Shown here in pieces: positions 28,755 through 42,263 of a stretch of DNA of 64,000 nt. The first letter of the stretch is position 1. Every line of letters starts with the position of its first letter. The translations under genes and the position numbers were made by a program. The stretch is taken from positions 2,356,001 through 2,420,000 of the forward strand of contig CP085323.1 in NCBI GenBank assembly GCA_022870745.1, given 5' to 3'. The notes under the pieces were generated by a model that searched no databases, was not told the DNA's origin, and saw only the letters and a program-made list of their open reading frames with translations. This stretch comes from Silvibacterium acidisoli (GTDB lineage: Bacteria > Acidobacteriota > Terriglobia > Terriglobales > Acidobacteriaceae).

Positions 28755-30002
28755 TCACCGCACCAGGAGGGGGACCGACTTCATGTGGGCCGTTATCAGG
28801 CGGCGAGTCTCCCGATCCAGCGGAAGTTCTTTCTGGAGTGTAGGCCAGAGTGCCATGATTCTCTCTATGGTCTCACGGGCGGTTTCAAGCACGAGCTTAC
28901 TAGGAACCTGTGCTTTTTGTGCAAAGCGTTCCATCAATGCCCAATCCAATTGGCTGGTGGCCTTCTCTTTGGCAATAGACAAGGCCAAGCGATCATCTGC
29001 GATATAGCGCACGGTAGACACGAAATCGTAGGCTGGGGAGAGTTGCGGCGTGTGGCCGTCGGGATAGATAAGGGACCAGTTCTTCAAGTGCATGTCATTG
29101 TTTCCGATGACCGCATTGAAGACGAGCCGTCGAATGAACTCGGTGAACTGTATCTCATCCGTTAGACGCCATAGATCGGCGCCCATATTGGTGTAGCTGT
29201 AGTTCTTGTATTTGGCTTCGGGAAACTGCCCATATATCTGGTTGAAATCCTCGATATGGATGCGTTTTCCCTTCGCGCCACGGTCAAATCGGCGGATGTA
29301 ATAGGCATTCCCTTTCAACAGCCGCCATTGTTCTGGAACGCCATCGATCCGGTCCATAGGGAGCAGGCCAACCTCCGGCACTTGTATGCCTACTTCACCC
29401 GCGAACTGCATCATGGAGTATTCGTTTTCGGGCAGATTCGGATACGCTGCGGACGGCAGCTTTATGATCCAGTGTTCACCCTGCCTGGAAGCGGGGATAG
29501 AGAGTTGCCGATTCGGATTGCCAACCGCCGAGAGCTTCAACTGGACGCCGGCGAGTGAAAATCTCAGAACATCCTTGCCGACCTTCGTGCGTACTTCAGT
29601 AGGGGTGCTTTGGGCAGGCGGAAGTGCGCGGCCTTCGGTGTCGTGAACGGTGATGGCCCCCGGCAGGTCATTGCCGAGAAGCCACAACAAAAAGAACTCT
29701 CTCTGCGCGTTCATATCGCCGTGCTCGGCGATATATTGCCGCAACTGTCCTTCGGGCAGAAGATTAGAAAAGAATGGAGGCAGTCGGCGCGTTACTGGCC
29801 GAACATCGGTTCGAAGCTCCCCGTAGGCATCGTAGAAACTCAAGCTCAGAACAGGCCGGTTCTGATCGGCAATATAGGCTGCATCGAAGACAAAAAGATT
29901 CTGGTCGTTCGGCAGGTTCGTAATCGTGCCAACAACGGTCCCAGAGAGACGTACCTCCAGGACGGAAGGCCGACTGGCGTTAATTGTTTTCTTCGTCGGC
30001 AT
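28755..30002 (-). CDS. hipA: HipA family toxin kinase
   Basis: A 415-residue HipA-like Ser/Thr kinase. The N-terminal half has the HipA-N pattern (ADQNRPVLSLSFYDAYG ... RRLPPFFSNLLPEG), and the kinase core has WIIKLPS (Lys), GNNDMHLKNWSLI (catalytic Asp, Asn) and LSPAYDFVSTV (DFG-like Asp). In HipBA modules the kinase phosphorylates a translation factor such as GltX and causes growth arrest unless bound by HipB. The ATG overlaps the hipB end by 23 bases, so the pair is coupled. All key motifs are intact. Confidence 0.93.
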   Translation of the reverse strand: MPTKKTINASRPSVLEVRLSGTVVGTITNLPNDQNLFVFDAAYIADQNRPVLSLSFYDAYGELRTDVRPVTRRLPPFFSNLLPEGQLRQYIAEHGDMNAQREFFLLWLLGNDLPGAITVHDTEGRALPPAQSTPTEVRTKVGKDVLRFSLAGVQLKLSAVGNPNRQLSIPASRQGEHWIIKLPSAAYPNLPENEYSMMQFAGEVGIQVPEVGLLPMDRIDGVPEQWRLLKGNAYYIRRFDRGAKGKRIHIEDFNQIYGQFPEAKYKNYSYTNMGADLWRLTDEIQFTEFIRRLVFNAVIGNNDMHLKNWSLIYPDGHTPQLSPAYDFVSTVRYIADDRLALSIAKEKATSQLDWALMERFAQKAQVPSKLVLETARETIERIMALWPTLQKELPLDRETRRLITAHMKSVPLLVR

Positions 30003-30297
30003 CTTCCGGCACTCCTCCTGCTAGAGATGAGCTGCTTTCGGTAGGCACTTTTGAATAGCCTCCATCGGCTACATGCTCCACCAGTGCTCGTACGGCTGGC
30101 ACAAGACGTTTGGGAATGAGCATGGGTTCGAGGCCCAAAACCCGCGCCATCTCCAGTAAAGTAGACACACGCAGATCGCCGCCGCGTTCGATTCGGGAGA
30201 CGGAGCTTTGCGGTTGGCCGATACGCTTCCCCAAGTCGCCCTGGGTAAAATTCCTAGCCTCACGAGCCTGACGGATTTGATTCTGAATATATGCCAT
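29980..30297 (-). CDS. hipB: HipB family antitoxin, XRE-type regulator
   Basis: A 105-residue protein with a helix-turn-helix in its first 60 residues (IRQAREARNFTQGDLGKRIGQPQSSVSRIERGGDLRVSTLLEMARVLG) and an acidic disordered tail (PEDADEENN). It should bind HipA and repress its own operon. The promoter region carries spaced inverted repeats GATATA-N11-TATATC (30300-30322) and ATATAT pairs, suitable as operators. Order hipB then hipA is the standard one. Confidence 0.92.
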   Translation of the reverse strand: MAYIQNQIRQAREARNFTQGDLGKRIGQPQSSVSRIERGGDLRVSTLLEMARVLGLEPMLIPKRLVPAVRALVEHVADGGYSKVPTESSSSLAGGVPEDADEENN

Positions 30298-30687: not shown

Positions 30688-30939
30688 TTGAATGTGAAGA
30701 TATTGCTGTGTTCGGCTCTGCCAATTGGAATCCTCCTGGTGTTTGGCGGATTTTTTGTTCTGATTTACGTCATTCCAAAGGCAGGAAAGAAGTATAAAGA
30801 CTCGGAAAGCAGAACCGAGTTCTATTCGGTTCGCGCCGCGTATTGGTCAGTTTTAACCGGTCTCTTCGTGCTGATTGTATCCGTAGTCACCTTAGCTTCT
30901 TCCTATGCAATAAGTATTGGTATAGGAGGCAAGCGATGA
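30688..30939 (+). CDS. Small two-transmembrane protein
   Basis: An 83-residue protein with two hydrophobic helices (ILLCSALPIGILLVFGGFFV and VLTGLFVLIVSVVTLASSYA) joined by a charged loop (PKAGKKYKDSESRTEF). It starts at TTG 30688 with AAAGGAGA seven bases upstream. The stop overlaps the next ATG (ATGA), coupling it to a dCTP-deaminase-like gene that itself ends in a membrane helix. Unknown family; a membrane partner of the next protein is a reasonable guess. Confidence 0.72.
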   Translation: MNVKILLCSALPIGILLVFGGFFVLIYVIPKAGKKYKDSESRTEFYSVRAAYWSVLTGLFVLIVSVVTLASSYAISIGIGGKR

Positions 30940-31610
30940 GCTTTCTTGCGAAGGGGGATATTGAAGACTATATCGATCGAGGGGAGTTAATTAAGCTTCC
31001 CCACGACGGCGGTGATCATGAGAGTGTTGATAAAAACAATATCAACCAATCATCTTATGATCTTTGTCTTGGTAAGGAAATCTATATGGTGGGTAATGCT
31101 GCACCGCAAATCCTGACGAAAGACATGCCGTACGCCACGCTCATTCCTGGGCAGTTTGCAATTTTAACGACACACGAAATTGTCTCTCTGCCAAACGAGC
31201 TGCTTGCATTCATTTCCCTTAAGAGCACATATAAATTTCAAGGCTTAGTAAATATCTCCGGTTTTCATGTAGATCCAACTTTTGAAGGGAAACTTCGTTT
31301 TGGAGTTCAAAATGTTGGTCCATCAGACATTCGCCTCAAATGCGGGGAGCCAACATTTACCATTTTCTTCTCGACACTTTCCTCTGACCGAACAGGAAAG
31401 TCACGCAAGGATAATGGAAACACACACTTCCGGCCCTCAAAAAATGGAATACGGCTGCAAGATGTTCAATTGCTCGGAGGCGGAAGCTTGACACTGGCGA
31501 GTCTTCATAATGAAGTGGAGCGACTGTCAACACTGGTGAAGATATACGGAGGACTCGCAATTGCGGCACTTGTAGCGTTAATAGTGGATCTGTTGCAGAG
31601 GATGCACTGA
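30936..31610 (+). CDS. dCTP deaminase/dUTPase-fold protein with C-terminal membrane helix
   Basis: A 224-residue protein. The trimeric dCTP deaminase/dUTPase fold is indicated by INQSSYDLCLGKEIYMVG near residue 35, FISLKSTYKFQGLVNISG and HVDPTFEGKLRFGVQNVGPSDIRL, matching the family's active-site blocks (S-R/K-S-S and H-V-D-P-x-[FW]-x-G). Unlike housekeeping enzymes it ends in a charged linker and one hydrophobic helix (YGGLAIAALVALIVDLL), so it may be membrane-tethered. GGAGG precedes the ATG, which overlaps the 2-TM peptide gene. Stand-alone dCTP deaminases in islands are known anti-phage factors that deplete dCTP; that role is inferred here. It converges on the thymidylate-synthase-like gene with 20 bases between. 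Confidence 0.82.
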   Translation: MSFLAKGDIEDYIDRGELIKLPHDGGDHESVDKNNINQSSYDLCLGKEIYMVGNAAPQILTKDMPYATLIPGQFAILTTHEIVSLPNELLAFISLKSTYKFQGLVNISGFHVDPTFEGKLRFGVQNVGPSDIRLKCGEPTFTIFFSTLSSDRTGKSRKDNGNTHFRPSKNGIRLQDVQLLGGGSLTLASLHNEVERLSTLVKIYGGLAIAALVALIVDLLQRMH

Positions 31611-31630: not shown

Positions 31631-32647
31631 TCATCGATTATCCAGTTTCCGATAACTTGTCCGTTCATGCCAACGTTTCGACGCAAGCGACAAAAGCGGA
31701 TTTGTGCATCTACCAGATAGATCATTCGCCAGCTGATCGTAGCCTCTGCGCCTGGCACTGTCAGCTGCGACAATCAAGAGCATGTTGCGCACTGCTGGAG
31801 TGCCTGGAGACACTGCAATATCCACGATATCGTTCTCTCTAAGTCCAGGGGCTATCAGTTCATTGACGGCTTTATTTAGGCTTGACCATATTGAGTCCGA
31901 CATGTCTTTGGGTAATAGCAAATTGTCTTCACTTGTCGGCGCATCTAGGGGAATACGAGAAGTTACATTCTCTAAATCACGTTCGTAAACATGTAAGCTA
32001 TCGCTCAATTGAGTGTAAGAGCCCATCGCTACGCCAAGCCAGCCGGCAAGTAACTCCTGCAGCATGGTGAATTGTACGAAGTTATATGGAGTGCCGCGAA
32101 ACAGGTCATTGCTCCTCATAACCTGTGTCCAATACAACTTCCCATTCCTCAGTTTGAGCATGGAGCAAAGGTTACATGGAACATCCGCCGAAGTCGGACT
32201 TCCATCCGCCAGAGGTATATCCGTATTGGCATCCCAGATTTGCAGAACAGCCTGTCTGGAATGAGGATTGCGTGCCAAAGCAGAACAAGCGCGCTCCAAT
32301 TGATCCACACCGAAGTGGTTGCGCAGCCTATATCCGTAAGCTCCAGGGTAAGACACACCAGCGCCTGCAAACTTTGGCAGGCGAGGATTGAAGAAGTTTA
32401 GGTATGCCGAATCTTGACGACCCGCGACAATTCCAATAACCTCAACGATGGCAAAAGGAGCACTCATAGCTGGGTATCTGGATACGACCCAGCGCTGGCG
32501 CGGATCGCGAATTACGAAAGCGGCTGGCAATAACTCCCACGCAGAACCTCCTCGCCCCGGTTGCAGGGTACAGTTTTCGCGGATTACGAACTCTTCCGCC
32601 GCTTTTTGCCACGCTTGGTCCGCAGTGCGACCATCAAATATTTCCAG
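31631..32647 (-). CDS. Thymidylate synthase / dUMP hydroxymethylase family protein
   Basis: A thymidylate-synthase-fold enzyme of 338 residues if translation starts at the CTG at 32647, which follows GGAGG by six bases. The shorter TTG start at 32530 would cut off part of the fold (AWELLPAAFVIRDPRQR). Catalytic features: nucleophile Cys158 in DVPCNL, RSND at 178-181, PYN with Asn189, and HVY at 219-221. The retained Asn and His-x-Tyr indicate dUMP rather than dCMP as substrate. In this operon context it could make 5-hydroxymethyl-dUMP for base hypermodification rather than plain dTMP, but sequence alone cannot decide. It is the last gene of the operon and converges with the dCTP-deaminase-like gene. 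Confidence 0.85.
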   Translation of the reverse strand: MEIFDGRTADQAWQKAAEEFVIRENCTLQPGRGGSAWELLPAAFVIRDPRQRWVVSRYPAMSAPFAIVEVIGIVAGRQDSAYLNFFNPRLPKFAGAGVSYPGAYGYRLRNHFGVDQLERACSALARNPHSRQAVLQIWDANTDIPLADGSPTSADVPCNLCSMLKLRNGKLYWTQVMRSNDLFRGTPYNFVQFTMLQELLAGWLGVAMGSYTQLSDSLHVYERDLENVTSRIPLDAPTSEDNLLLPKDMSDSIWSSLNKAVNELIAPGLRENDIVDIAVSPGTPAVRNMLLIVAADSARRRGYDQLANDLSGRCTNPLLSLASKRWHERTSYRKLDNR

Positions 32648-32669
32648 ACTGCACCTCCAGAAAAGGCTA

Positions 32670-33952
32670 TCAAATCGTTTGTTTAGCGTTGGATGTTATT
32701 TCTGGTGTAAGGATTTGCTTGAACACCTCCCTCGAGAGGCCAGATTGAAACGGTAGTCCTTCGTCTTCAAATCGGCAACTCGGATTCCGAAGTAGGACAC
32801 CCACATACCCAAACGCGTCCGCACTGACCGAGATGGTGCCGTATGACGAAAGGTAGACTCCGGCGATATGGTCCGCACCAGTTTGAAAAAAGAGATAGCC
32901 AGCTAGGAGCGCCGCCTTGTCTTTGAAGTGTGGAAGTGTAAGGTCTGCTGAACTAATGTCATTGTGCTGCAAAGCGATGAATCCAGGTAGATCTGACGGT
33001 AGCTGCATCGCCGCTTTTTTCATCGCATCCAACTGAGCCTTCGAGGGATCATCAGGCTTTTCGCTCCGCATGATTACGATCAACCTTCCTGTTTCCATCT
33101 GAATTCCAGCAAGATGGCAATTTTGACCGAACTTCCGTTGCGCTTCCTTATACAAGCTCTGCTCTGTTGCATTTGCAGAATCTGCAAATGCAGCAGAATA
33201 CAGTTCCCGCGTGATCGTAAAGTTGGGTCGGTTCACAGTCACGATCTCACTCGCAATAATCAAATGCTTTGTCGCCTCTATCAGAGCGTTGCGCTCAGGC
33301 GTCACAGACGGGAGACGATCGTTGAGCGTGATAATGATCACTTCGCTAACATCTAGGCCTGAGGCTCGCGCTGACAATTCGGGCAACACCGCGTGCATGA
33401 ACTCGTAGAATCCTTTTCTATGGATCTTTCTGCCAGCATCGCTGATAATGCCTTGCACTCAATGGCGCCTGTACATCTGCCCTTTTGGAACACCAGATCC
33501 GCATTCCCCGAGCCTTCTAGGTCGGGGAAACTTACGTCATATTCACCGGATACAAGTTGAGCGGCTAACTCCATCTCTTGGTATACGGAAGCAAACCCAG
33601 TGGTGGCCTGGAGAGCGTCCCTCAATCGGCCTTCGAGTGCCTTCCTCCCTCGATCCGAGAGAGACTTGTGAACCTCTACCACCGTCTGACAGAATCGAAG
33701 TGCACGGATTGAAATAGGATTTGACGCAAGTTCCGGCCCCATGCCTACTAGTCCGCGAGCGGACATTTCATCGGCGATTTGCAACTCGAGCCAGTGATAA
33801 TCAGAAGCGATCCGTTCACAGTACGGCGATGAAAGACCTGCCCGTCGGATCTCACCCGTTCGTTTATCCCAGAGGCGAGCGCCAACCAATGCGATAAATT
33901 CAGGGACATACCCGCGCAAGATCCAAGGTTCATTCACAATCCGAAATCGCAT
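32670..33952 (-). pseudogene. PD-(D/E)XK nuclease-like gene interrupted by a frameshift
   Basis: Two overlapping frames (33952 down to 33353, and 33458 down to 32670) form one protein of about 427 residues if one base is restored near 33441-33446. The first frame gives MRFRIVNEPWILRGY..., then GNADLVFQ and the nuclease-type motif AIECKALS; the second continues DAGRKIHRKGFYEFMHAVLPEL to the end. Asp in ADLVF with Glu-x-Lys in ECK is the PD-(D/E)XK catalytic pattern. The summed length (1283 bases) is one short of a multiple of three. No homopolymer marks the site. It may be a true mutation, programmed recoding, or a sequencing error. The family is unnamed; a nuclease acting on DNA that lacks the neighbouring enzymes' modification would fit. 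Confidence 0.72.
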
Positions 33953-34006
33953 GGTGACACACTATCTTCAGTAGATCGGCTACATTAGTCCTTGTTGATT
34001 TGAGGA

Positions 34007-35692
34007 CTATCGGCCAGCAGTCCGTTGTCGCGCAATTTTTGCGTTGATTCCCCATTTGGGCGGATACCAATAGTCAATTGGCGCTGATGTGGCTCTGAAT
34101 TTCTGTTTGATTCGGGTTCTCAATGAAGCTCCCGTGATTTCGGGATGGAAGACGCGAGAATACTTGTCGACCTCGCAGAATAGATTTTGACAGTCGATGA
34201 GTTGTAGCGGCCTACCCCATAGCGACTTGAAGTTTATTCCCAGCCGTTCAAATTCAGCCTCTTGTCGGTCAGCGATGACTCGGATTATGTCCGCTTCCGA
34301 AAGCCCTCCGAGCGACGCAAAGCACTTGGAAATCCCCCCTTTGGCTCCGGGCCCAGGCACTACAAATTGCATCTCAGAGAAATCAGTTAAGGTGCTGTAA
34401 TTCAAATCTGTCACGTACTGGTAGGCGAGAAAATCGCCAATCATCGGATACGACCGCAGCAAGGTGAATGCGTCGAGCATCGTTTTGCTGCCTGCGACTT
34501 GCAATGGGAGTTCGTCTTCCATCATCTGCTGTAATAGCCGTAGATGGGACCGATGCTTTCGCGTCGTCCCAAACGCCTTGCTTCCTGACGGCATAATGTA
34601 CGCTGCTGAATAGATTGTTGTGCCGCCGTTGATCGCTCGCGAAAGGACGGCATCATAAGTATCGTAGTCAAAATCTCTATACGAGATTTGGCCCAGAGTC
34701 GCTTCCAAGAGACGCCATGTCTCTACTTTGTTGAACAGCTTAAACAAAATCGTCCGGAAGAAAAGTTCTTCTTCTGACTGATCACCCTCGTATATGACCT
34801 CCTTGATCAGGAATTGGCTGACGCGGTCGGATGCTCTATAGGCATTGGTGAATTTGAATTCAGAGAAGATGCTGTCGGTTGTCCAAGGGGGGGCTTGACC
34901 TCCGAGCCGTCTAAAGAAAATATCCTGCCGCTCCGCCGCGAAGCGCCAATACGTATCGTAGGCGACTGTTGGAACGGCTGGAGAAAGTGCGTTCGCGATA
35001 GTGATCCCTTGCGACCCAATCCTTATGCCCTTCTTCGCGGTCAAGTGCAACGTCATTTGACTATTTGTTTCGATCTGGGTCTGAGGTTGACTCGATCCAT
35101 CAATGGCTGGAACGAGGAGCGAAATTGCCTCTTGAACAGATCGGTCATTATCGACAATGATCACTGGGGCAAGTTTTTCATCTAGCGCAAGATCGGCGTA
35201 TAGATCGCGCCATCGTTCCCATGTTCGTCGGCTTTCCGGGCGCAGTGGCTCCTTTCGACGGATAAGGAAGATGGTTGCGGGAAGGAACCCTTCCCATGCG
35301 GCGATCTCGATCTGAATCATCTGACTAAGAGCGTTGCTACTAATCCCAGATGCCAATCCGTAAACTTTTGTGGACCACCAAAACCTATCCAAGACGATGG
35401 AGATACCAGCACGCAAGGCGGGCAAAATGATGGATTCGATTGCGTCGAGATGCGCCGCAATATGCATGAGCTGCATACTCAACGGTTTTATGTGCGCGAC
35501 TCCATGCGATTGAGGGTCATGATGTAGATCGTAGACTAGTTTTCCTAATGTTGCGTCCTCTCTACCAGGAAAGGAAAGACGTTGCGCACGAATACCCTTC
35601 TCGTTCAACAGCGCGGTGAATTGCTCCGACAGTTCGGTTTTACCCACCCCGTCCGGTCCTTCAAACACAAATAGCTGTCCAACTTGCTGCAC
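34007..35692 (-). CDS. dTMP kinase fused to alpha-glutamyl/putrescinyl thymine pyrophosphorylase-like domain
   Basis: A 561-residue fusion. Residues 1-200 are a thymidylate-kinase-like P-loop kinase: Walker A EGPDGVGKT at 11-19, then VLDRFWWSTKVYG (DRF/Y motif) and an Arg-rich lid. Residues from about 235 on (TYWRFAAERQDIFFRR, FKFTNAYRASDRVSQFLIKEVIY, ILFKLFNKVETWRLLE, SYPMIGDFLAYQYVTDLNYS, VPGPGAKGG) match my memory of the aGPT-pyrophosphorylase (ADDT) family, HhH-glycosylase-fold enzymes predicted to build hypermodified thymines. The kinase could phosphorylate 5-hydroxymethyl-dUMP or modified DNA bases. GTG 35692 overlaps the upstream stop by one base (TAGTG). Confidence 0.82.
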   Translation of the reverse strand: MQQVGQLFVFEGPDGVGKTELSEQFTALLNEKGIRAQRLSFPGREDATLGKLVYDLHHDPQSHGVAHIKPLSMQLMHIAAHLDAIESIILPALRAGISIVLDRFWWSTKVYGLASGISSNALSQMIQIEIAAWEGFLPATIFLIRRKEPLRPESRRTWERWRDLYADLALDEKLAPVIIVDNDRSVQEAISLLVPAIDGSSQPQTQIETNSQMTLHLTAKKGIRIGSQGITIANALSPAVPTVAYDTYWRFAAERQDIFFRRLGGQAPPWTTDSIFSEFKFTNAYRASDRVSQFLIKEVIYEGDQSEEELFFRTILFKLFNKVETWRLLEATLGQISYRDFDYDTYDAVLSRAINGGTTIYSAAYIMPSGSKAFGTTRKHRSHLRLLQQMMEDELPLQVAGSKTMLDAFTLLRSYPMIGDFLAYQYVTDLNYSTLTDFSEMQFVVPGPGAKGGISKCFASLGGLSEADIIRVIADRQEAEFERLGINFKSLWGRPLQLIDCQNLFCEVDKYSRVFHPEITGASLRTRIKQKFRATSAPIDYWYPPKWGINAKIARQRTAGR

Positions 35693-36483
35693 TATGCCGC
35701 CTCTTGCTCATGAAGTTCTAGAATCTGATTAAGGGAATCCTTTAATGGCTTTAGACCTGACTTGGTATACCCCTCGCCGGATGGAAGCTTGAGCGACGAT
35801 GCGATGCAAGTGACATGGGCGAGGTGCAATCCCATCTGCTGAGCCATGAAACGGCCAAGCCAGCAAAGCCCCAGATAATTGCCATAGGCCTTGGGCATGT
35901 GGTGCTGAAGTGCATAAAAGCCTGTGACTTGCAAATCGCCATCAGAAGCGTTGAATGCCACTTGTTGAAGACATGGGAAGCCGCGCCTAGGACTGTTAGT
36001 GTGATCGCAAGTTGGGTCAAAGATTGCCGCCTGCAACGCGCTGTGTCGATGGTTGCCGCCATTGAAGGTATGTATGACGTGAGCCAACTGGTTTATGGGC
36101 TTCATCTCTGGAGGTGCACCTATTGGTTTGTAGGATGTCATGCGCCTGAAGTAGACGCCTTTGCTATTGGCGGGGCACTTAGAGATCGTCTTCCAAATGC
36201 GTTCATAGCGCTCATAGAGAATCTTCGCATTCTCCGTCGTACTAGGAGTCCACAACGAATTCGGAAATATCGTGCTCGCAATTGTGCGGCATGTCTGCTT
36301 ATTCACTCCATCGATGGCTTCCTGAACGCCGAGTACCTCACGCGGAAGTGAACGCTCGTCGAAGTCGGATATCGAGATAACCGCCGGAGATAGGTCGGAG
36401 ACGCCCGGTTGCATCAAATGGTTAAACACTTCGATCCATGCAACTGACAGATTTTGACTCTTCGCAACATAGAGCTTACTCAT
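35692..36483 (-). CDS. Divergent thymidylate-synthase-superfamily protein
   Basis: A 263-residue protein not obviously a normal ThyA, but its C-terminal half keeps the thymidylate-synthase layout: RRGFPCLQQVAF (Cys171 where the nucleophile belongs), LQVTGFYALQHHMPKAYGNYLGLCWLGRFMAQQMGL (the strand-helix block with Asn in the PFN position). The RS-x-D pair and the His-x-Tyr motif are replaced, so the chemistry is probably altered. ATG 36483 follows GGAGGTTGAGG and overlaps the ImmA/IrrE gene by eight bases; the stop overlaps the dTMP-kinase-fusion GTG. A second TS-fold enzyme in the same operon suggests two-step work on dUMP. Function is inferred. Confidence 0.68.
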   Translation of the reverse strand: MSKLYVAKSQNLSVAWIEVFNHLMQPGVSDLSPAVISISDFDERSLPREVLGVQEAIDGVNKQTCRTIASTIFPNSLWTPSTTENAKILYERYERIWKTISKCPANSKGVYFRRMTSYKPIGAPPEMKPINQLAHVIHTFNGGNHRHSALQAAIFDPTCDHTNSPRRGFPCLQQVAFNASDGDLQVTGFYALQHHMPKAYGNYLGLCWLGRFMAQQMGLHLAHVTCIASSLKLPSGEGYTKSGLKPLKDSLNQILELHEQEAA

Positions 36484-37342
36484 CCTCAACCTCCTCAAGA
36501 TGGCGAAACATTGCCAGGCCCTTGAATTCCTTACGACTAACGCGAATGTATTGCGCCCAAGTGGTGTGCGGCAGAGTGGCCCGGCCGATACCTGGCCTGA
36601 TGGCCTTCACCAAGCATCCACCCGGAAAATTTCGCACTTGCGTGACGTTGTTGCCTTCAACCTGAAAGCTGCTGGGCAAAAGGATAAGATCGTCCACGCG
36701 GGCGTCAATCGGCCGACCGTTCCAGCATTCATCAACCAGCACGAGATGTTCTTTGGTCTTTTCGCCGAGTATAGATTCGCGAATCTGAGGCAACTTAATC
36801 TGCTCGAGATCAGCAGCTTTTTGCCGAGTGAGAAGTTCCATACCGAGGTGCAGATGACGAATCAAGGTTACGTATCCGACTCCTAGCCATGACGCAATCC
36901 GGTAGCACTGCTCCGCTGATAGATTCTTCACATTCCATCCACGAGCGGCCAGGCCCCGCAACAGTGTCGTCTTCGGCATCAGGAGTTCGGATGCGAAGCA
37001 ATTAGCTTCAAACTCTTTCGGGTCGTAGCGGCGATTGTTCCCCCGTTCCTCCACGAGCTCGTCAAACTGCTCACCGTGACCGTAGATGTGGTGGCCTAAT
37101 TCGTGGGCACAGGTAAATGATTGGCGTCCTTGCGGGCGTAACGACGAAACGACAATTACAGGTTTCCCTGGTGAATAGACGCCTTCTGCAGATGGCAATG
37201 GTGCGAACCGGACTTCAATGCCCATCTCAATGGCTAGATCGAATACGTTGCATGGGGCGCCAGAAGCAATGTTGCCCTGTTTACGGGCTTTCAGGGCAGC
37301 GGAAGAAGCCCTGAGCGCAAGTCTCTGGCGCTCTGGATTCAT
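36476..37342 (-). CDS. ImmA/IrrE family metallo-endopeptidase
   Basis: A 288-residue zinc peptidase. TCAHELGHHIYGHGEQFD holds HExxH, and the downstream Glu is in YDPKEFEANCFASELLMP, the usual third ligand region. A SLGVGYVT-like segment and the 'long C-terminal half' are typical of ImmA partners that cleave or derepress an XRE repressor. The regulator is encoded just upstream and the two genes overlap by ATGA. In mobile elements this pair senses damage or infection and switches an operon; here it sits inside the nucleotide-modification operon, which it probably controls. Confidence 0.9.
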   Translation of the reverse strand: MNPERQRLALRASSAALKARKQGNIASGAPCNVFDLAIEMGIEVRFAPLPSAEGVYSPGKPVIVVSSLRPQGRQSFTCAHELGHHIYGHGEQFDELVEERGNNRRYDPKEFEANCFASELLMPKTTLLRGLAARGWNVKNLSAEQCYRIASWLGVGYVTLIRHLHLGMELLTRQKAADLEQIKLPQIRESILGEKTKEHLVLVDECWNGRPIDARVDDLILLPSSFQVEGNNVTQVRNFPGGCLVKAIRPGIGRATLPHTTWAQYIRVSRKEFKGLAMFRHLEEVEDE

Positions 37343-37686
37343 TTCGGCTCCTTCGTTTTCCGGATCATTTGGAGGAGCGACATCAACTGATCCAAATCCT
37401 GATCCTTCATCTTCGAGAGTTCGCGGGCGGCAAGTAGAATCCGATCTTCTGCGGCATCCGTATCATCCGGAGTACCAATTAACCATTCGACGCCGACGCG
37501 GTAGAGCGCCGCGAATCTTGTCAGTTCTTCTCCTGACACTTTCCGTCGGCCCGCCTCGATCTCGGTTACAGTCGGGCGGTGAAGATTTAGTATTTTTGCA
37601 ACTTGTCCCTGGCTCAATCCGGCCGCTTCGCGGGCAGTACGCAGTCGGCCAGCTATCTCCACCCTGATGTTCTCGTGGGTACTCAA
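37339..37686 (-). CDS. XRE-family HTH transcriptional regulator
   Basis: A 115-residue repressor-type protein. The helix-turn-helix lies at residues 12-65 (LRTAREAAGLSQGQVAKIL, HRPTVTEIEAGRRKVSGEEL) with a C-terminal helical segment (EDRILLAARELSKMKDQDLDQLMSLL). TTG start overlapping the upstream acyl-carrier-like stop (TTGA), and ATGA overlap with the ImmA/IrrE gene downstream. It is the likely binder of the palindrome upstream of the operon. Confidence 0.9.
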   Translation of the reverse strand: MSTHENIRVEIAGRLRTAREAAGLSQGQVAKILNLHRPTVTEIEAGRRKVSGEELTRFAALYRVGVEWLIGTPDDTDAAEDRILLAARELSKMKDQDLDQLMSLLQMIRKTKEPK

Positions 37687-37964
37687 GCTGTCACCTTTGA
37701 CACAGCGGAAAGAAGAGAAGCAATCTGTGCAATGGCGAGAGGTTCGCCTGTTTCCTTGTCCTTAAAGATGGTATCGACTGCACAGGAAATCCCGAGACGC
37801 TCTTCTAACACCAAAGTGGTTTCAATACCGAGCAAACTATCGAAGAAATCTAAGTCCAGAAGTGGTTTAGTGCCTTGAGTAATTTCGGAAGAGTCAGTGC
37901 CCAATCCTTCCTGCAACTCCTCTAAAGTTGCAATGATTACCCCTTGAACCTCAAGCTCGCTCAT
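37683..37964 (-). CDS. Acyl carrier protein-like protein
   Basis: A 93-residue acidic helical protein. LDLDFFDSLLGIETTLVLEERLG carries the Asp-Ser-Leu phosphopantetheine attachment motif of carrier proteins, flanked by the expected helices I (IIATLEELQEGLG) and IV. It is the first gene of the seven-gene operon and has GAGGTGA before its ATG. No acyl-activating enzyme is in the island, so its acyl or aminoacyl partner is unknown. A carrier protein in a predicted base-modification operon hints that an activated group is handed to the modified base, but this is speculation. Confidence 0.78.
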   Translation of the reverse strand: MSELEVQGVIIATLEELQEGLGTDSSEITQGTKPLLDLDFFDSLLGIETTLVLEERLGISCAVDTIFKDKETGEPLAIAQIASLLSAVSKVTA

Positions 37965-37989: not shown

Positions 37990-38006
37990 GGTAAGAAAAT
38001 CTTACC
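37990..38006. promoter_or_regulatory. Palindromic operator upstream of the operon
   Basis: GGTAAGA-AAA-TCTTACC, perfect 7-bp arms, 26 bases before the first ATG. A possible -35 TTTACA lies 19 bases before TAAGAT inside the palindrome, so repressor binding would block the promoter. The neighbouring XRE protein is the obvious binder. Confidence 0.6.
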
Positions 38007-38072: not shown

Positions 38073-38720
38073 CTAACGCAAAGAGCTACCTTTACCTGAA
38101 TAGCGCTTGTCGCTTTGATCGAAGTCGAAGGGGTCGCCTGTGACAATGTTGCGGGTGTTCTTGAAGTCAGTGCTGAGCCAACGAAGGAAGGTTGAGCATT
38201 GCAAACCTGTGAAAACTCGATGTCCGATACCATTCTTATATCCGAGCACCGTTAGTACATCGGGTGCAACAGTAGGTGCAGTCACTCCAAAATAGAAATA
38301 GTCACGAGACACAAGAACCCTGTCTGCACTTGTATCCTTATTGATGTTCAGTGGATTCGGTGTTCCGTCTGGGTTACTATGATGTGAATCTAACTGTTGC
38401 CAGTGTTCGTTCGGCTGATCGCGATGATAGATGTTATCGCCAACCATCATGACGCTACTGCCATTCCTCACGGGGCGCTTGTCGAAATATTCTAAGCTGG
38501 TCCAATATTCGTTGAACGACAACGTTTCTGTTACTCGCATCGCATAAACGCATCGGCCAGTGGCTTTTAACCGCGAGCCGCCCATACCGACCACCCAATC
38601 GTCCACCTGCGCCTTCGCCCGAATACGAGGCATGCAAGTTGCAAGAGTGCAGCAGCCATGAAACGGATTGGGAGCGAAACCAAAGTCACGGTCGACAACG
38701 TACATGTAGACCTTTGCCAC
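38073..38720 (-). CDS. Nmad2-type nucleotide-modification-associated domain protein
   Basis: A 215-residue protein matching my memory of 'nucleotide modification associated domain 2': YMYVVDRDFGFAPNPFHGCCTLATCMPRIRAKAQVDDWVVGMGG, then FNEYWTSLEYFDKRP, VGDNIYHR, DYFYFGV and FTGLQCSTFLRWL. The Cys-rich start and the GMGGSRLK turn are distinctive. The family is predicted to act with base-modifying enzymes, biochemistry unknown to me. GTG 38720 is used (ATG 38705 possible). It directly follows a TIR gene with only three bases between. Confidence 0.75.
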   Translation of the reverse strand: MAKVYMYVVDRDFGFAPNPFHGCCTLATCMPRIRAKAQVDDWVVGMGGSRLKATGRCVYAMRVTETLSFNEYWTSLEYFDKRPVRNGSSVMMVGDNIYHRDQPNEHWQQLDSHHSNPDGTPNPLNINKDTSADRVLVSRDYFYFGVTAPTVAPDVLTVLGYKNGIGHRVFTGLQCSTFLRWLSTDFKNTRNIVTGDPFDFDQSDKRYSGKGSSLR

Positions 38721-38723
38721 GGC

Positions 38724-39209
38724 TCAGCACACCCTCGTCGTATTCGGGTGAACAGCTTCTCGCGTCGTTCCGTCCGAATTCTGAAATTGGTTGCTCTTGC
38801 CCTCGATAGCGTCGATGATACTGTCCGTGTTCCAAGCGACGACAGCTGATCCGTAGCGCTCTAACGCTGCCGGCTTTTCAGCATCAGTTCCACCGTAAGC
38901 GTATACGCCGACGATCCGTTTGCCCTGCTTAGCCGCCTGGGTAATCTCCCAATCTACCCAGGGGCGGGTATGTGTGTCTTTCCCTATTAAAACCACTACG
39001 GTGGAGGCCCAGGAGATCTTCATGCGAAGAAGACGACGGATCGTCTCGTCCTTTACGCGTCCCTCATCCATCCGACGTTGGTTTGCGGGTTTCATCCGAA
39101 CGGAGCTGTTTCGGACATCGCTACCAGTTTTGTTTAAAAGGTCTGTGAGTTGATCAACTTTGTTATCGTCGGCGTGATGGTGGCTGATGAAAACGTGGCG
39201 TCGAGTCAT
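38724..39209 (-). CDS. TIR-like (DUF1863/ThsB-type) domain protein
   Basis: A 161-residue single-domain protein. RHVFISHHHADDNKVDQLTDLL starts the TIR fold, and VVVLIGKDTHTRPWVDWEITQAAKQGKRIVGVYAY contains the catalytic-region Glu. The MTH538 TIR-like family includes Thoeris ThsB, which makes a NAD-derived signal during phage infection. ATG 39209 follows GGAG at six-base spacing (the frame is open to 39230). It is coupled to the Nmad2 gene downstream; a second TIR gene lies 150 bases upstream on the same strand. Confidence 0.85.
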   Translation of the reverse strand: MTRRHVFISHHHADDNKVDQLTDLLNKTGSDVRNSSVRMKPANQRRMDEGRVKDETIRRLLRMKISWASTVVVLIGKDTHTRPWVDWEITQAAKQGKRIVGVYAYGGTDAEKPAALERYGSAVVAWNTDSIIDAIEGKSNQFQNSDGTTREAVHPNTTRVC

Positions 39210-39362
39210 TCTGGGCTCCGAAGGCTTCACAACTCATATATTCCATTCCGGACGCCCTGCGTGGGCACACGCAATGTCGATCAAATCAATATTGTATTCG
39301 CCTTGTGTTCGCCAAGGCAAGAAGCTGGATCGATAGGGCGAAGAACGTGACCAGGCTGACCT

Positions 39363-39950
39363 CTATTTCACCCAATTTGCAAAATTATTGAAGCCGTCGT
39401 TCGAACTCCAGTCATACACCGAATAAAAGTTTGAGAAGTTGAAGCCTTTGCCGCCGTACGGATCTGAAACTTGATTACAGGCGTATGTCGCCGCCCCGTC
39501 AATCTTTTCGTAACGAACCCAGTTTCCGTTGACAACCTCCCATAGGGTCGCTTCGCGACCGTCGTCGGAGAATCTCACACCGACATATGTGAAGGGGTTC
39601 GGGCCGAGAGATTTGGTCAAGCCGTCCCGCCCCTTTATGGAATTGATGTGAACGCCGAAGACATGATTTCCACGCTTGAAACTCTTCAATACTTCATACC
39701 GAACCCAAGGCCGGGACCAAGTCTGCGAACCGATCAAAACGCAAGAATTAGAGGTATTTTCCAGGCCTTCATTGATGAGCCGCTTTAGTGCAGGGTCACC
39801 GCCCTGGCTTTTTGTTCGCTCCCAAAGCGACGCGTCGTAGAAACCTGCGACCTCGCGGTCAGGTTTCGTCAACCAATGATTGCGAACCACGTTTGCACGA
39901 AAATCGATCACATCTTGATAGTGAAAGCTGAAGAACACTCGATTCGCCAT
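39363..39950 (-). CDS. TIR-like (DUF1863/ThsB-type) domain protein
   Basis: A 195-residue protein starting RVFFSFHYQDVIDFRANVVRNHW, close to the consensus of Thoeris ThsB proteins as I know them, then SNSCVLIGSQTWSRPWVRYEVLKSFKRGNHVFGVHINSI with the conserved Glu. The C-terminal 70 residues (GVRFSDDGREATLWEVVNGNWVRYEKIDG...) are an extension common in this family. TIR proteins of this class convert NAD to cyclic ADP-ribose isomers. No SIR2- or macro-domain ThsA is present in the island. It is divergent from the TIR-SLOG pair. Confidence 0.87.
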   Translation of the reverse strand: MANRVFFSFHYQDVIDFRANVVRNHWLTKPDREVAGFYDASLWERTKSQGGDPALKRLINEGLENTSNSCVLIGSQTWSRPWVRYEVLKSFKRGNHVFGVHINSIKGRDGLTKSLGPNPFTYVGVRFSDDGREATLWEVVNGNWVRYEKIDGAATYACNQVSDPYGGKGFNFSNFYSVYDWSSNDGFNNFANWVK

Positions 39951-40131: not shown

Positions 40132-41478
40132 ATGTCTTCCGGGCTTCCAACCGTTAAACGAGGAAATTTCCAAGGCGGTATCATGGCACTTCAAGGTGGC
40201 GCACAACTGATTTTTCAGTGTGAAAAGCCGGACGGCACTTTCGAATGCCTCGGCTTCGTCGGTATTCCGGTCGTCAACCCCGTCTTTCTGGTCTTCTGTT
40301 CTGCCGGCACTTCGAGTGCGAGAACCGATCTCTCCTCCTTGCGCAACGATTTTCTCAGCCGATTGCAGGCACTTTCACCCAGCCTAAAGGCAGTTCCCGC
40401 TCCATGTGGCGGATTCGCCGGTGCTCCTGACCACTGTCACGCGCTTCAGGAGCCCGACTGTCAAAAAGTTCTGGTGATCGTCGGGGATGTGTCGCAGCCT
40501 CTATCGATGCAGTCGTATTACACGACGTGGCTGAATGGGGATCCCAGTTATCGAATTCTACCGATCTTCCGTAAAGCGGTCAGAATTTCTGTAAGCGCCT
40601 TGCTGCCGTCGGCTCTCCATCACATCAACGTGGAGTTCTGGTCAACACACATAGGGCAGACGCTCCCAACGATCCTAAGCCTGTCGAACCTGACACCTTC
40701 TTGTCCCCGAATCTTTATAAGCTATCGACAGAAGGATTCGGCAGCGCTAGCGATGCAACTGTTTGATGCGCTTTCGCACGCGGGTTTTGAAACCTTCCTC
40801 GATCATTTTCGCATTCCCCCTGGCGTCAATTTTCAGGCGAGACTCACACAAGAGCTCGGCGACAAATCGATGGTGTTGCTCATTGAGTCAGCAGACATCC
40901 TCGGATCAGATTGGACAATATACGAGATTAATGTGGCGAAGACGTGCTCGCTCGGGGTTTTCGCCCTCCACATGCCAAACGGCGTGATGGTTCCAGGAAT
41001 TGACCCGTCAGTCCGCATGTCTGTTTCAGACTCTGATTTCCAGAGTGGAGCCTTTTCCTCCACGTCCGAATTGGTTCAAGGTGTTCTCACCGCAGTGGTC
41101 GATCGCGCAAAGGCTGAGCATGATCGGGCTCTCATTCGACGTCGTCAAATCTTGCACGACTCGCTCGAAGGAGCTTTAGCCTCCGAAGGGGTGGTTCTCG
41201 CGGCATTAACGCCGCGCGGAATGGTGCCAGTGACCTCGAAAAAGGGTACCGAATACTTGGTCTGGCTTACTCCACGTCCCCCAGAACTCTTAGATTTTCA
41301 CAGCGTTCACGGATCAACAGTTCCACCGGTTAAGGGTGTGGTAATAGGTCTTTCGCGACTCATGGAGCCAGCACGCCTCGAACAAACGACTTGGCTAGCT
41401 GGTTTGTCCCAGATCACGATGATCGAAGAAGGACAGCTTAAGAAAGCTGCCGAAGCAATTGCTAAGGGAACGTTATGA
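40132..41478 (+). CDS. TIR-domain protein paired with SLOG protein
   Basis: A 448-residue protein in three parts. Residues 1-185 are an unrecognised domain (AQLIFQCEKPDGTFECLGFVGIPV ... CQKVLVIVGDVSQPL). Residues about 195-310 are a classical TIR: PRIFISYRQKDSAALAMQLFDALSHAGFETFLD and MVLLIESADILGSDWTIYEINVAK with the catalytic Glu in YEI. The rest (about 330-448) has LLDFHSVHG and GLSRLMEPARLEQTTWLAGLSQITMIEEGQ. The start is uncertain: ATG 40132, or ATG 40183. The stop overlaps the SLOG gene (ATGA), so the two act together, probably TIR as signal maker and SLOG as sensor. Confidence 0.86.
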   Translation: MSSGLPTVKRGNFQGGIMALQGGAQLIFQCEKPDGTFECLGFVGIPVVNPVFLVFCSAGTSSARTDLSSLRNDFLSRLQALSPSLKAVPAPCGGFAGAPDHCHALQEPDCQKVLVIVGDVSQPLSMQSYYTTWLNGDPSYRILPIFRKAVRISVSALLPSALHHINVEFWSTHIGQTLPTILSLSNLTPSCPRIFISYRQKDSAALAMQLFDALSHAGFETFLDHFRIPPGVNFQARLTQELGDKSMVLLIESADILGSDWTIYEINVAKTCSLGVFALHMPNGVMVPGIDPSVRMSVSDSDFQSGAFSSTSELVQGVLTAVVDRAKAEHDRALIRRRQILHDSLEGALASEGVVLAALTPRGMVPVTSKKGTEYLVWLTPRPPELLDFHSVHGSTVPPVKGVVIGLSRLMEPARLEQTTWLAGLSQITMIEEGQLKKAAEAIAKGTL

Positions 41479-42263
41479 CAACTTCCTTCAAGAAAGTCGG
41501 GCACAGTCTCCGTGGAAAGACAATCTTTCTCTCGGCTAGTATTCCAAAGCTTGAACGTGCAAAACGGTTTCTCAGGGTGCCGGACGCGGCATTCGAAATT
41601 GAACAGGCAGTCATAAGCCTTGCCCGAGCTGTGTTTAGTGAAGGTGGACGTTTGGTGTTTGGTGGGCATCCCGCAATATCCCCACTGGTAGCAATGGTGG
41701 TAGGCGAGTATCGAGAACCTAGACTCGCAGAAAGCGTGGAAGAGCGCCATGCCGCCCCGATAGAGATTTTTCAGTCCCGAGCATTCGATGGATATCTTCC
41801 CGACGAGACTTTACTCATGTATAGGCTCGGCCATGCGTCTATTACGTGGGTCGAACCCGTCGACGAAGAACGATATGATCCCAAGTCGGAGGACGATGAG
41901 ACTCCCTGCCCCAAAAGCATGGAAAGGATGCGCGCGAGAATGCTCGATCAGAGCGCTCCAGACGCGATGGTATGCATCGGAGGTATGGAGGGTGTCGAAT
42001 CCGAAGTCAAGATGATGCTGGAAAGGCGACCGCAAACACCGATTTATGTACTAGAGCGAACCGGCGGCGCAGCTAGATTACTGCGTGATTCCTACCCAGG
42101 AAATGTGCGATTAATCGATACAGAAATCATTGAGCGCGTTGAGAAGCTTCGGGCGGAACTGCGGCCCAGAAATACCCCTGTTCAAGATACGGAACATCGC
42201 GCACTTATCCCTTATCCGCTAGTCATGCAAACGATCGTGGAAGAGATTTCAAATCAGAACTGA
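41475..42263 (+). CDS. SLOG-domain protein (TIR-associated)
   Basis: A 262-residue Rossmann-like SLOG protein. GKTIFLSASIPKLERAKRF opens the fold; GGRLVFGGHPAISPLVAMV supplies the Gly-rich nucleotide loop; APDAMVCIGGMEGVESEVKMMLER is the second SLOG signature (GGMxGVxxE); PIYVLERTGGAARLL closes it. SLOG domains bind nucleotide-derived ligands, as in ThsA, where they sense the cyclic ADP-ribose signal. No SIR2, nuclease or membrane effector is fused, so the output is unclear. Coupled to the TIR gene by ATGA. Confidence 0.83.
   Translation: MTTSFKKVGHSLRGKTIFLSASIPKLERAKRFLRVPDAAFEIEQAVISLARAVFSEGGRLVFGGHPAISPLVAMVVGEYREPRLAESVEERHAAPIEIFQSRAFDGYLPDETLLMYRLGHASITWVEPVDEERYDPKSEDDETPCPKSMERMRARMLDQSAPDAMVCIGGMEGVESEVKMMLERRPQTPIYVLERTGGAARLLRDSYPGNVRLIDTEIIERVEKLRAELRPRNTPVQDTEHRALIPYPLVMQTIVEEISNQN

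Follow-up and report, generated by a model that had tools for sequence, protein, structure and literature searches.

Thymine hypermodification is known as a shield of phages against bacterial nucleases, and the locus described here raises the question of what enzymes of this kind might do when they are arranged as an operon of a bacterium. The locus lies on the minus strand, at positions 31631-37964 of a 64,000 nt stretch of DNA from Silvibacterium acidisoli (Acidobacteriota; GCA_022870745.1, contig CP085323.1, 2,356,001-2,420,000 of the forward strand). This whole stretch is called the window, and coordinates are window positions. A seven-gene operon that makes a modified thymidine, together with a nuclease acting on DNA that lacks it, had been proposed from the letters of the window alone (the original prediction). 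The operon is real: its seven genes were found where they had been placed, the first five of them chained. It is quite possible, if short of probable, that this is a mobile and inducible anti-phage operon which makes a modified thymine and writes it into DNA. Beyond the identity of the genes, each step of the mechanism proposed below is one that we infer. To the original prediction the present analysis adds a link between the carrier protein and AcpS, the TIR-Nmad2 neighbours, an operator-like palindrome and a relative of the operon in E. coli.

The operon and its relatives

Ten proteins of the window were compared with Pfam at E <= 1, and PADLOC profiles were used for the regulators. The first gene of the operon encodes an acyl carrier-like protein (ACP) of 93 amino acids (37683-37964; PP-binding, 2.4e-4), with the attachment serine, Ser43, in the context F-D-S. 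It is followed by genes for an XRE-type repressor (37339-37686; HTH_31, 3e-14), an ImmA/IrrE metallopeptidase (36476-37342; Peptidase_M78, 1e-19) and a divergent thymidylate synthase (TS)-fold enzyme, TS2 (35692-36498). Next comes a gene fusing a thymidylate-kinase-like P-loop domain (TMPK) to HMUDK_hel, the helical part of the phage 5-hydroxymethyl-deoxyuridine (hmdU) DNA kinase (34007-35692), then a frame-broken nuclease-like gene and, last, a gene for a TS of the dUMP-type family, TS1 (31631-32647). The labels of carrier, XRE, ImmA, TS-fold enzyme, kinase fusion and TS given beforehand are thus supported by profile matches, and in the case of TS2 by the TS fold of its model. In the window ACP and XRE overlap by 4 nt, as do XRE and ImmA, and TS2 and the fusion by 1 nt; the ImmA/TS2 overlap is 23 nt with the longest frame and 8 nt if TS2 starts, as it possibly does, at the ATG at 36483.

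Genome contigs were scanned with HMUDK_hel, at least 214 relatives were confirmed, and the best 80 were kept as numbered loci (L); with the window included, counts of neighbouring genes are out of 81 and hold within the flanks examined. The 80 relatives are 59-72% identical to the HMUDK_hel of the window, and the 75 for which a phylum was named carry 15 phylum names. On a quick tree the phylum label needs 28 changes, and this count, made without a shuffle control for the label, agrees with frequent horizontal transfer. The family was found in 7 of 396 sampled genomes of the window's phylum, its own included, and, among 72,556 plasmid records, in 21. Of five plasmid regions examined, those of Sinorhizobium, Allocoleopsis and Nostoc, all typed as conjugative, showed by independent annotation the order HTH, ImmA, TS, HMUDK_hel and pyrophosphohydrolase, one of the three with 'acyl carrier protein' annotated as its first gene. 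The block was not present in the Parabacteroides (38% identity) and Acinetobacter (40%) plasmid regions, the former having TIR, HMUDK_hel and radical SAM genes and the latter an HMUDK_hel annotated in two pieces.

The usual order in the relatives is carrier protein, XRE, ImmA, TS2, HMUDK_hel and then MazG, TS1 or radical SAM. TS2 was found in 66 loci, ImmA in 63, XRE in 60, ACP in 59, MazG in 47, TS1 in 24 and radical SAM in 9, and 57 loci have ACP, XRE, ImmA and TS2 together. The gene that immediately follows HMUDK_hel in the same orientation is MazG in 34 loci, TS1 in 18 and radical SAM in 8; over the whole neighbourhood MazG and TS1 co-occur in 4 loci, radical SAM occurs with neither, and 5 loci are without all three. 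The TMPK domain is fused in 22 loci and only separate in 11, and it accompanies TS1 in 20 of the 24 loci and MazG in 11 of the 47. With longest-frame starts, the median gap is -4 nt for ACP/XRE (50 pairs), XRE/ImmA (60) and TS2/HMUDK_hel (58), and -23 nt for ImmA/TS2 (61). Of the members that the original prediction had named, the carrier, XRE, ImmA and TS2 therefore recur in the neighbourhoods, TS1 does so in the minority just given, and the nuclease does not.

TS1, HMUDK_hel and the dCTP-deaminase-like protein (DCD) encoded next to TS1 all have phage relatives, as would be expected of a remnant of phage self-protection genes without a bacterial role. Such an origin is nonetheless hardly credible, as the bacterial HMUDK_hel proteins keep their 59-72% identity across phyla while the best phage record is 35% identical (among the best 40 of 490 matches), and the gene order, the coupling of ACP with TS2 and the palindrome described below are conserved. 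Here, core families of phage thymine hypermodification are brought together in an operon of bacteria that is widespread and mobile and apparently under regulation.

TS1 and the kinase fusion

The likely start of TS1 (PF00303, 7e-19), chosen by homology, is a CTG codon at 32647 that is preceded by GGAGG and gives 338 amino acids; most relatives start at least one codon earlier. In BLAST comparisons TS1 scored 131 bits with the enzyme of phage PaMx11, 118 with gp29 of Goe9, which is annotated as a deoxyuridylate hydroxymethyltransferase, 107 with M6, 100 with Det7 and 47 with E. coli ThyA. The catalytic C146, the dUMP-type N177 and the contacts R126, R166, D169, H207 and Y209 are present, position 127 holds a Q, which Goe9 and Det7 have there too, and R21 lies outside the shorter frame used. 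D143 and N147 are common to TS1 and three hmdU-phage enzymes, whereas ThyA and 44RR td have L143 and H147. A tree, with long branches and two ThyA-type references, split TS1 and the hmdU-phage, E. coli-cluster and dCMP enzymes from ThyA/td with 99% SH-aLRT support. Since TS1 is the sole PF00303 match in the host genome and a ThyX-family candidate lies elsewhere in it, TS1 is probably not a housekeeping enzyme. TS1 is thus a probable dUMP hydroxymethylase, grouping with hmdU-phage enzymes rather than with ThyA. The ThyX match (G000:C1:196693-198111; L096/L097) consists of two segments of one frame of 562 amino acids, as if the domain were duplicated. Beside TS1 in L053 (13297-15525) lies a gene for a protein of a cluster also found in L039, L055 and L066 (720-771 amino acids); in the L053 protein Pfam finds a metallophosphoesterase domain (3e-9) and, slightly short of the cut-off, a TS domain (3e-5).

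The fusion has Thymidylate_kin (PF02223, 1.7e-11) as its N-terminal domain and HMUDK_hel (PF18723) behind it, at 2.2e-109 and 365.6 bits against a cut-off of 25. In Pfam no match to the P-loop kinase domain PF18748 was found in the fusion, a domain that is not universal in the HMUDK group, as the P-loop neighbour in PaMx11 also falls below the cut-off. In phages, hmdU-DNA kinase genes likewise pair HMUDK_hel with a P-loop gene. The top fold match of HMUDK_hel is gp46, a phage 5-PmdU glycinyltransferase, and the second, with equal Z, is a queuine salvage enzyme (DUF2419). By its HMUDK_hel part the fusion can be placed with the 5-hmdU DNA kinase group, and it may phosphorylate hmdU in DNA.

This protein had been described as a dTMP-kinase/aGPT-pyrophosphorylase-like fusion, which is a fair name. 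None of the ten window proteins matched PF18724 (ADDT, aGPT-Pplase2) at E <= 1. In phage SN1 (PMC9476957) the gene listed as aGPT-Pplase1 is a neighbour of the nucleotide kinase gene, and aGPT-Pplase2 stands at the opposite end. In phage M6 the HMUDK_hel gene gp055 adjoins the P-loop gene gp054, and gp051 is ADDT. Because the two gene orders correspond, PF18723 can be taken as the family with the older name aGPT-Pplase1, and two phage records under the HMUDK_hel match are named aGPT-Pplase1 or 'clade 1'. A C-terminus of some unrelated family, named beforehand as what would refute the original prediction, did not occur.

TS1, TMPK, DCD and, in other loci, MazG are the kind of set by which hmdU phages of the SPO1 type replace T with hmdU. 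From the families and residues, TS1 would make 5-hydroxymethyl-dUMP, and the TMPK-like domain, with DCD where present, may drive it toward hmdUTP or supply kinase activity. HMUDK_hel with its P-loop domain would then act on the modified base within freshly synthesised DNA, and DNA copied during infection would carry the modified T, hindering the phage. Some bearing on this comes from transcription in vitro: in the accessible text of one study, the hmdU template alone raised transcription to about 350%, and a 5-HMUDK-treated hmdU template was transcribed by E. coli RNA polymerase at 37% of unmodified DNA (PMC6457204). As its authors suggest a defence role against hmdU phages, HMUDK_hel and the kinase might instead phosphorylate the hmdU of invading phage DNA and so silence the phage. 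However, TS1, TMPK and DCD would be needless if the hmdU were phage-derived, and TS1 is present in 24 of the 81 loci, so we regard such an attack as very unlikely. The part of the original prediction that concerned a modified thymidine is supported in so far as TS-fold, kinase and aGPT-Pplase-family enzymes share one operon across phyla; its restriction-modification part, taken up below, does not.

Phages M6 and PaMx11 have cassettes for thymidine hypermodification, with which the operon shares TS, P-loop kinase and HMUDK_hel genes. No relatives of the ADDT, PLP, FAD and radical-SAM genes of M6 and PaMx11 were found in the 81 bacterial neighbourhoods, which have instead the regulator pair, ACP and TS2, and often MazG and AcpS.

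The carrier protein and TS2

In the window the PP-binding match of ACP reached 21.7 bits against a cut-off of 20.8, and of 25 members of the ACP family 13 matched the same Pfam entry at E <= 1. The family is divergent, with a mean column identity of 19% (25 members), yet the attachment serine is invariant across all 54 aligned sequences, one of which, L082, lacks the usual context. A profile of the 25 members gave 112 PDB matches at E <= 10, and the best 60 of the 112 (top 1.5e-7) are ACPs or complex-I subunits, the latter of which we take to be ACPs. Judged by its sequence, having both the PP-binding family and the attachment serine, the carrier is a true acyl carrier protein, and it would carry 4'-phosphopantetheine.

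ACP is tightly coupled with TS2: 59 of the 66 TS2 loci have it, and none of the 15 loci that lack TS2 does (Fisher 2e-11, relatedness ignored); with loci cut by contig ends removed, the numbers are 59 of 63 and 0 of 12 (7e-11, relatedness likewise ignored). A phosphopantetheinyl transferase (PPTase) of the AcpS family (PF01648, 4.7e-15 in L068) occurs in 30 of the 81 neighbourhoods, 28 of them also with ACP, and in 20 loci its gene is convergent and directly behind MazG. Two PF01648 genes lie elsewhere in the window's genome. In five cyanobacterial loci (L023, L029, L033, L043, L046) a gene of one and the same sequence cluster lies behind AcpS (DUF1643, 3e-54, in L029).

TS2 has no Pfam match at E <= 1 and matches only TIGR03283, at 7.5e-10, which is below the cut-off of that family. 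Its model shows the TS fold, with the CMP hydroxymethylase MilA as top fold match at 15% identity. Both the catalytic Cys and the Asn that reads uracil are retained in TS2. It is without the ThyA contacts R166, H207 and Y209, so that contacts to the phosphate and sugar of dUMP are lost. A carrier protein in such an operon, tied to TS2, is new to us. Their co-occurrence suggests a branch in which TS2 and the carrier might add or supply a further group. ACP, the frequent nearby PPTase and the altered TS-fold enzyme together point to a base chemistry for which a narrow term search found no match in print. It may even be, speculative and on balance rather doubtful as this is, that the operon holds the first carrier-protein-dependent DNA base modification. 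TS2 would join the uracil methylene to an ACP-held group or thiol, HMUDK_hel would help to place the product in DNA, and the outcome, released by ImmA during infection, would be immunity through an inducible poisoning of new DNA with a modified T and not through cutting.

ACP, PPTase, a TS-fold enzyme, a kinase and radical SAM are also usual parts of natural-product clusters, and MilA as the top fold match would suit a small nucleoside product of an antibiotic-like kind. A cluster of that sort has a slim chance at best, as neither transporter nor synthetase is among the recurring families identified (families in fewer than 5 loci being mostly unassigned), and the operon is found on conjugative plasmids, beside toxin-antitoxin genes in several loci and with a defence-type regulator pair.

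Regulation, neighbouring genes and known defence systems

XRE-ImmA pairs are known as the capH/capP regulators of CBASS and other defence systems. The XRE and ImmA proteins of the window match PADLOC capH (7e-13) and capP (1e-21), and HExxH was found in 62 of 62 ImmA relatives longer than 200 amino acids; here, in contrast to those systems, the pair forms genes two and three of a thymine-enzyme operon with a conserved palindrome of its own. This operator-like palindrome, GTAAGAnnnTCTTAC, lies upstream of the first gene at 37991-38005, the sole exact copy in the 5.36 Mb genome. Near the first gene it was found in 53 of 59 testable loci at <=2/12 mismatches, 34 of them perfect, and was missing at this threshold in 6 of 59; random stretches of the same loci gave 4 of 1083 at <=2 mismatches and none perfect. 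The motif had been read off 13 of the 59 loci, and the 46 others gave 40 sites with no more than 2 mismatches, 24 of these perfect. Judged by eye, the palindrome overlaps a -10-like hexamer in many relatives. An operator before this operon is new to us, and it offers a direct handle on what switches the operon on.

The palindrome itself is established by its conservation. The likeness to capH/capP suggests that XRE would bind it before the carrier gene and repress the operon, and that the protease would remove the repressor, presumably on a damage- or infection-type signal. The peptidase-controlled derepression proposed earlier thus gains the regulator pair and the conserved palindrome, with the removal itself argued from capH/capP.

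The same pair and palindrome fit an inducible better than a constant self-modification, which bears on the restriction-modification system of the original prediction, if this is read as constant self-modification joined to a nuclease cutting unmodified DNA. A nuclease-like gene does lie in the operon, its N-terminal part (33353-33952) being 43% identical to residues 1-181 of an L081 protein and its C-terminal part, in another frame (32670-33458), 36% identical to residues 171-394. The two frames overlap and match the halves of one intact gene of 431-437 amino acids near the operons of L081 and L067, so the gene is either frame-broken here or affected by a sequencing error. Neither frame has a Pfam match at E <= 1, and the PD-(D/E)XK label was given by eye. 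As the gene is present in 2 of 80 related neighbourhoods (3 of 81 with the window), was not found within the flanks examined in the other 78 and is broken in the window, an intact cognate endonuclease is not conserved with the modifier; the nuclease cannot be upheld as a restriction effector, and restriction-modification is unlikely.

Beyond the two ends of the operon lie further genes that recur with it. DCD (30843-31610, plus strand; PF22769, 3e-15), convergent with TS1 and with a hydrophobic stretch at its C-terminus by eye, is found in 25 loci. On the other side are Nmad2, nucleotide modification associated domain 2 (38073-38720, minus strand; PF18753, 3.6e-73), in 12 loci, and an adjoining ThsB-like TIR protein, TIRa (38724-39230, minus strand; PF08937, 1e-21; E. 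coli relative, 1.2e-51), in 13, these counts including the window. TIR-Nmad2 might be an added arm of the system in some loci, the window among them. With TIR and SLOG genes adjoining the operon, the operon might instead yield a soluble product, a thymidine nucleotide in modified form and perhaps bound to the carrier, which would serve as an immune signal sensed by TIR/SLOG or as a polymerase poison and not as a DNA mark. Enzymes of the MazG and DCD families have free nucleotides as their substrates, the chemistry that ACPs serve is usually that of small molecules, and the queuine salvage enzyme that ties in Z among the fold matches of HMUDK_hel would agree with this. On the other hand, the phage relatives of HMUDK_hel sit in DNA-modification cassettes, its top fold match is gp46, and no TIRa relative was found in the flanks examined of 68 of the 81 loci; we take a soluble product to be possible yet somewhat unlikely.

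The anti-phage reading of the operon draws on E. coli, where in two records (L094, L095) TS, P-loop, HMUDK_hel, TIR and Nmad2 genes stand in a row beside conjugation genes. Pfam matches in L095 are DNMK (PF21448, 2.8e-10) and HMUDK_hel (4e-53). When 5426 E. coli genomes were searched at DNA level with the Pseudomonas locus L074, 16 gave a hit, in each case through a single stretch of 97 bases that falls in the part for Nmad2. TS, nucleotide kinase, HMUDK_hel, TIR and Nmad2 of the E. coli cluster each have a counterpart in the window, which adds the ACP-XRE-ImmA-TS2 block; none of these four was annotated within 12 kb in L094/L095. The kinase is DNMK in L095, and TMPK-like and fused in the window.

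The text of the DefensePredictor report names a 5-hydroxymethyluracil kinase and a thymidylate synthase as domains that occur in units whose anti-phage activity was validated in E. coli, the legend of its Fig. 3C gives the abbreviations TS, dNMPk, 5hmdUk and NMAD, and aGPT-Pplase, MazG and MazG-C are named in predicted, untested systems (PMC13092281, 2026). From the legend abbreviations we infer that TS, dNMPk, 5hmdUk and NMAD probably make up one validated unit, the cluster of L094/L095. If the unit is so composed, TS1, HMUDK_hel and Nmad2 are its labels present in the window, with a kinase of the TMPK type and not DNMK. A smaller relative of the operon has thus probably been validated as anti-phage, the accessible part of that report giving no mechanism.

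Further genes of defence or toxin-antitoxin type were seen near these loci. The window has a second ThsB-like TIR gene (39363-39950, 5e-18) and a TIR_2 protein (40132-41478, plus strand), overlapped by a SLOG-family gene (41475-42263; LD_cluster3, 1.5e-24), and the E. coli cluster of L095 is likewise flanked by several TIR genes. The gene of a HipA-like kinase (HipA_C, 5e-51) and the HTH gene upstream of it form a HipBA-type pair near the operon (28755-30297, minus strand). An AbiEii-type toxin cluster lies near the operon in L050, L053, L057, L067, L071, L078 and L081 (Pfam run on L057), in five of the seven with an AbiEi/DUF6088-type partner (tested in L081).

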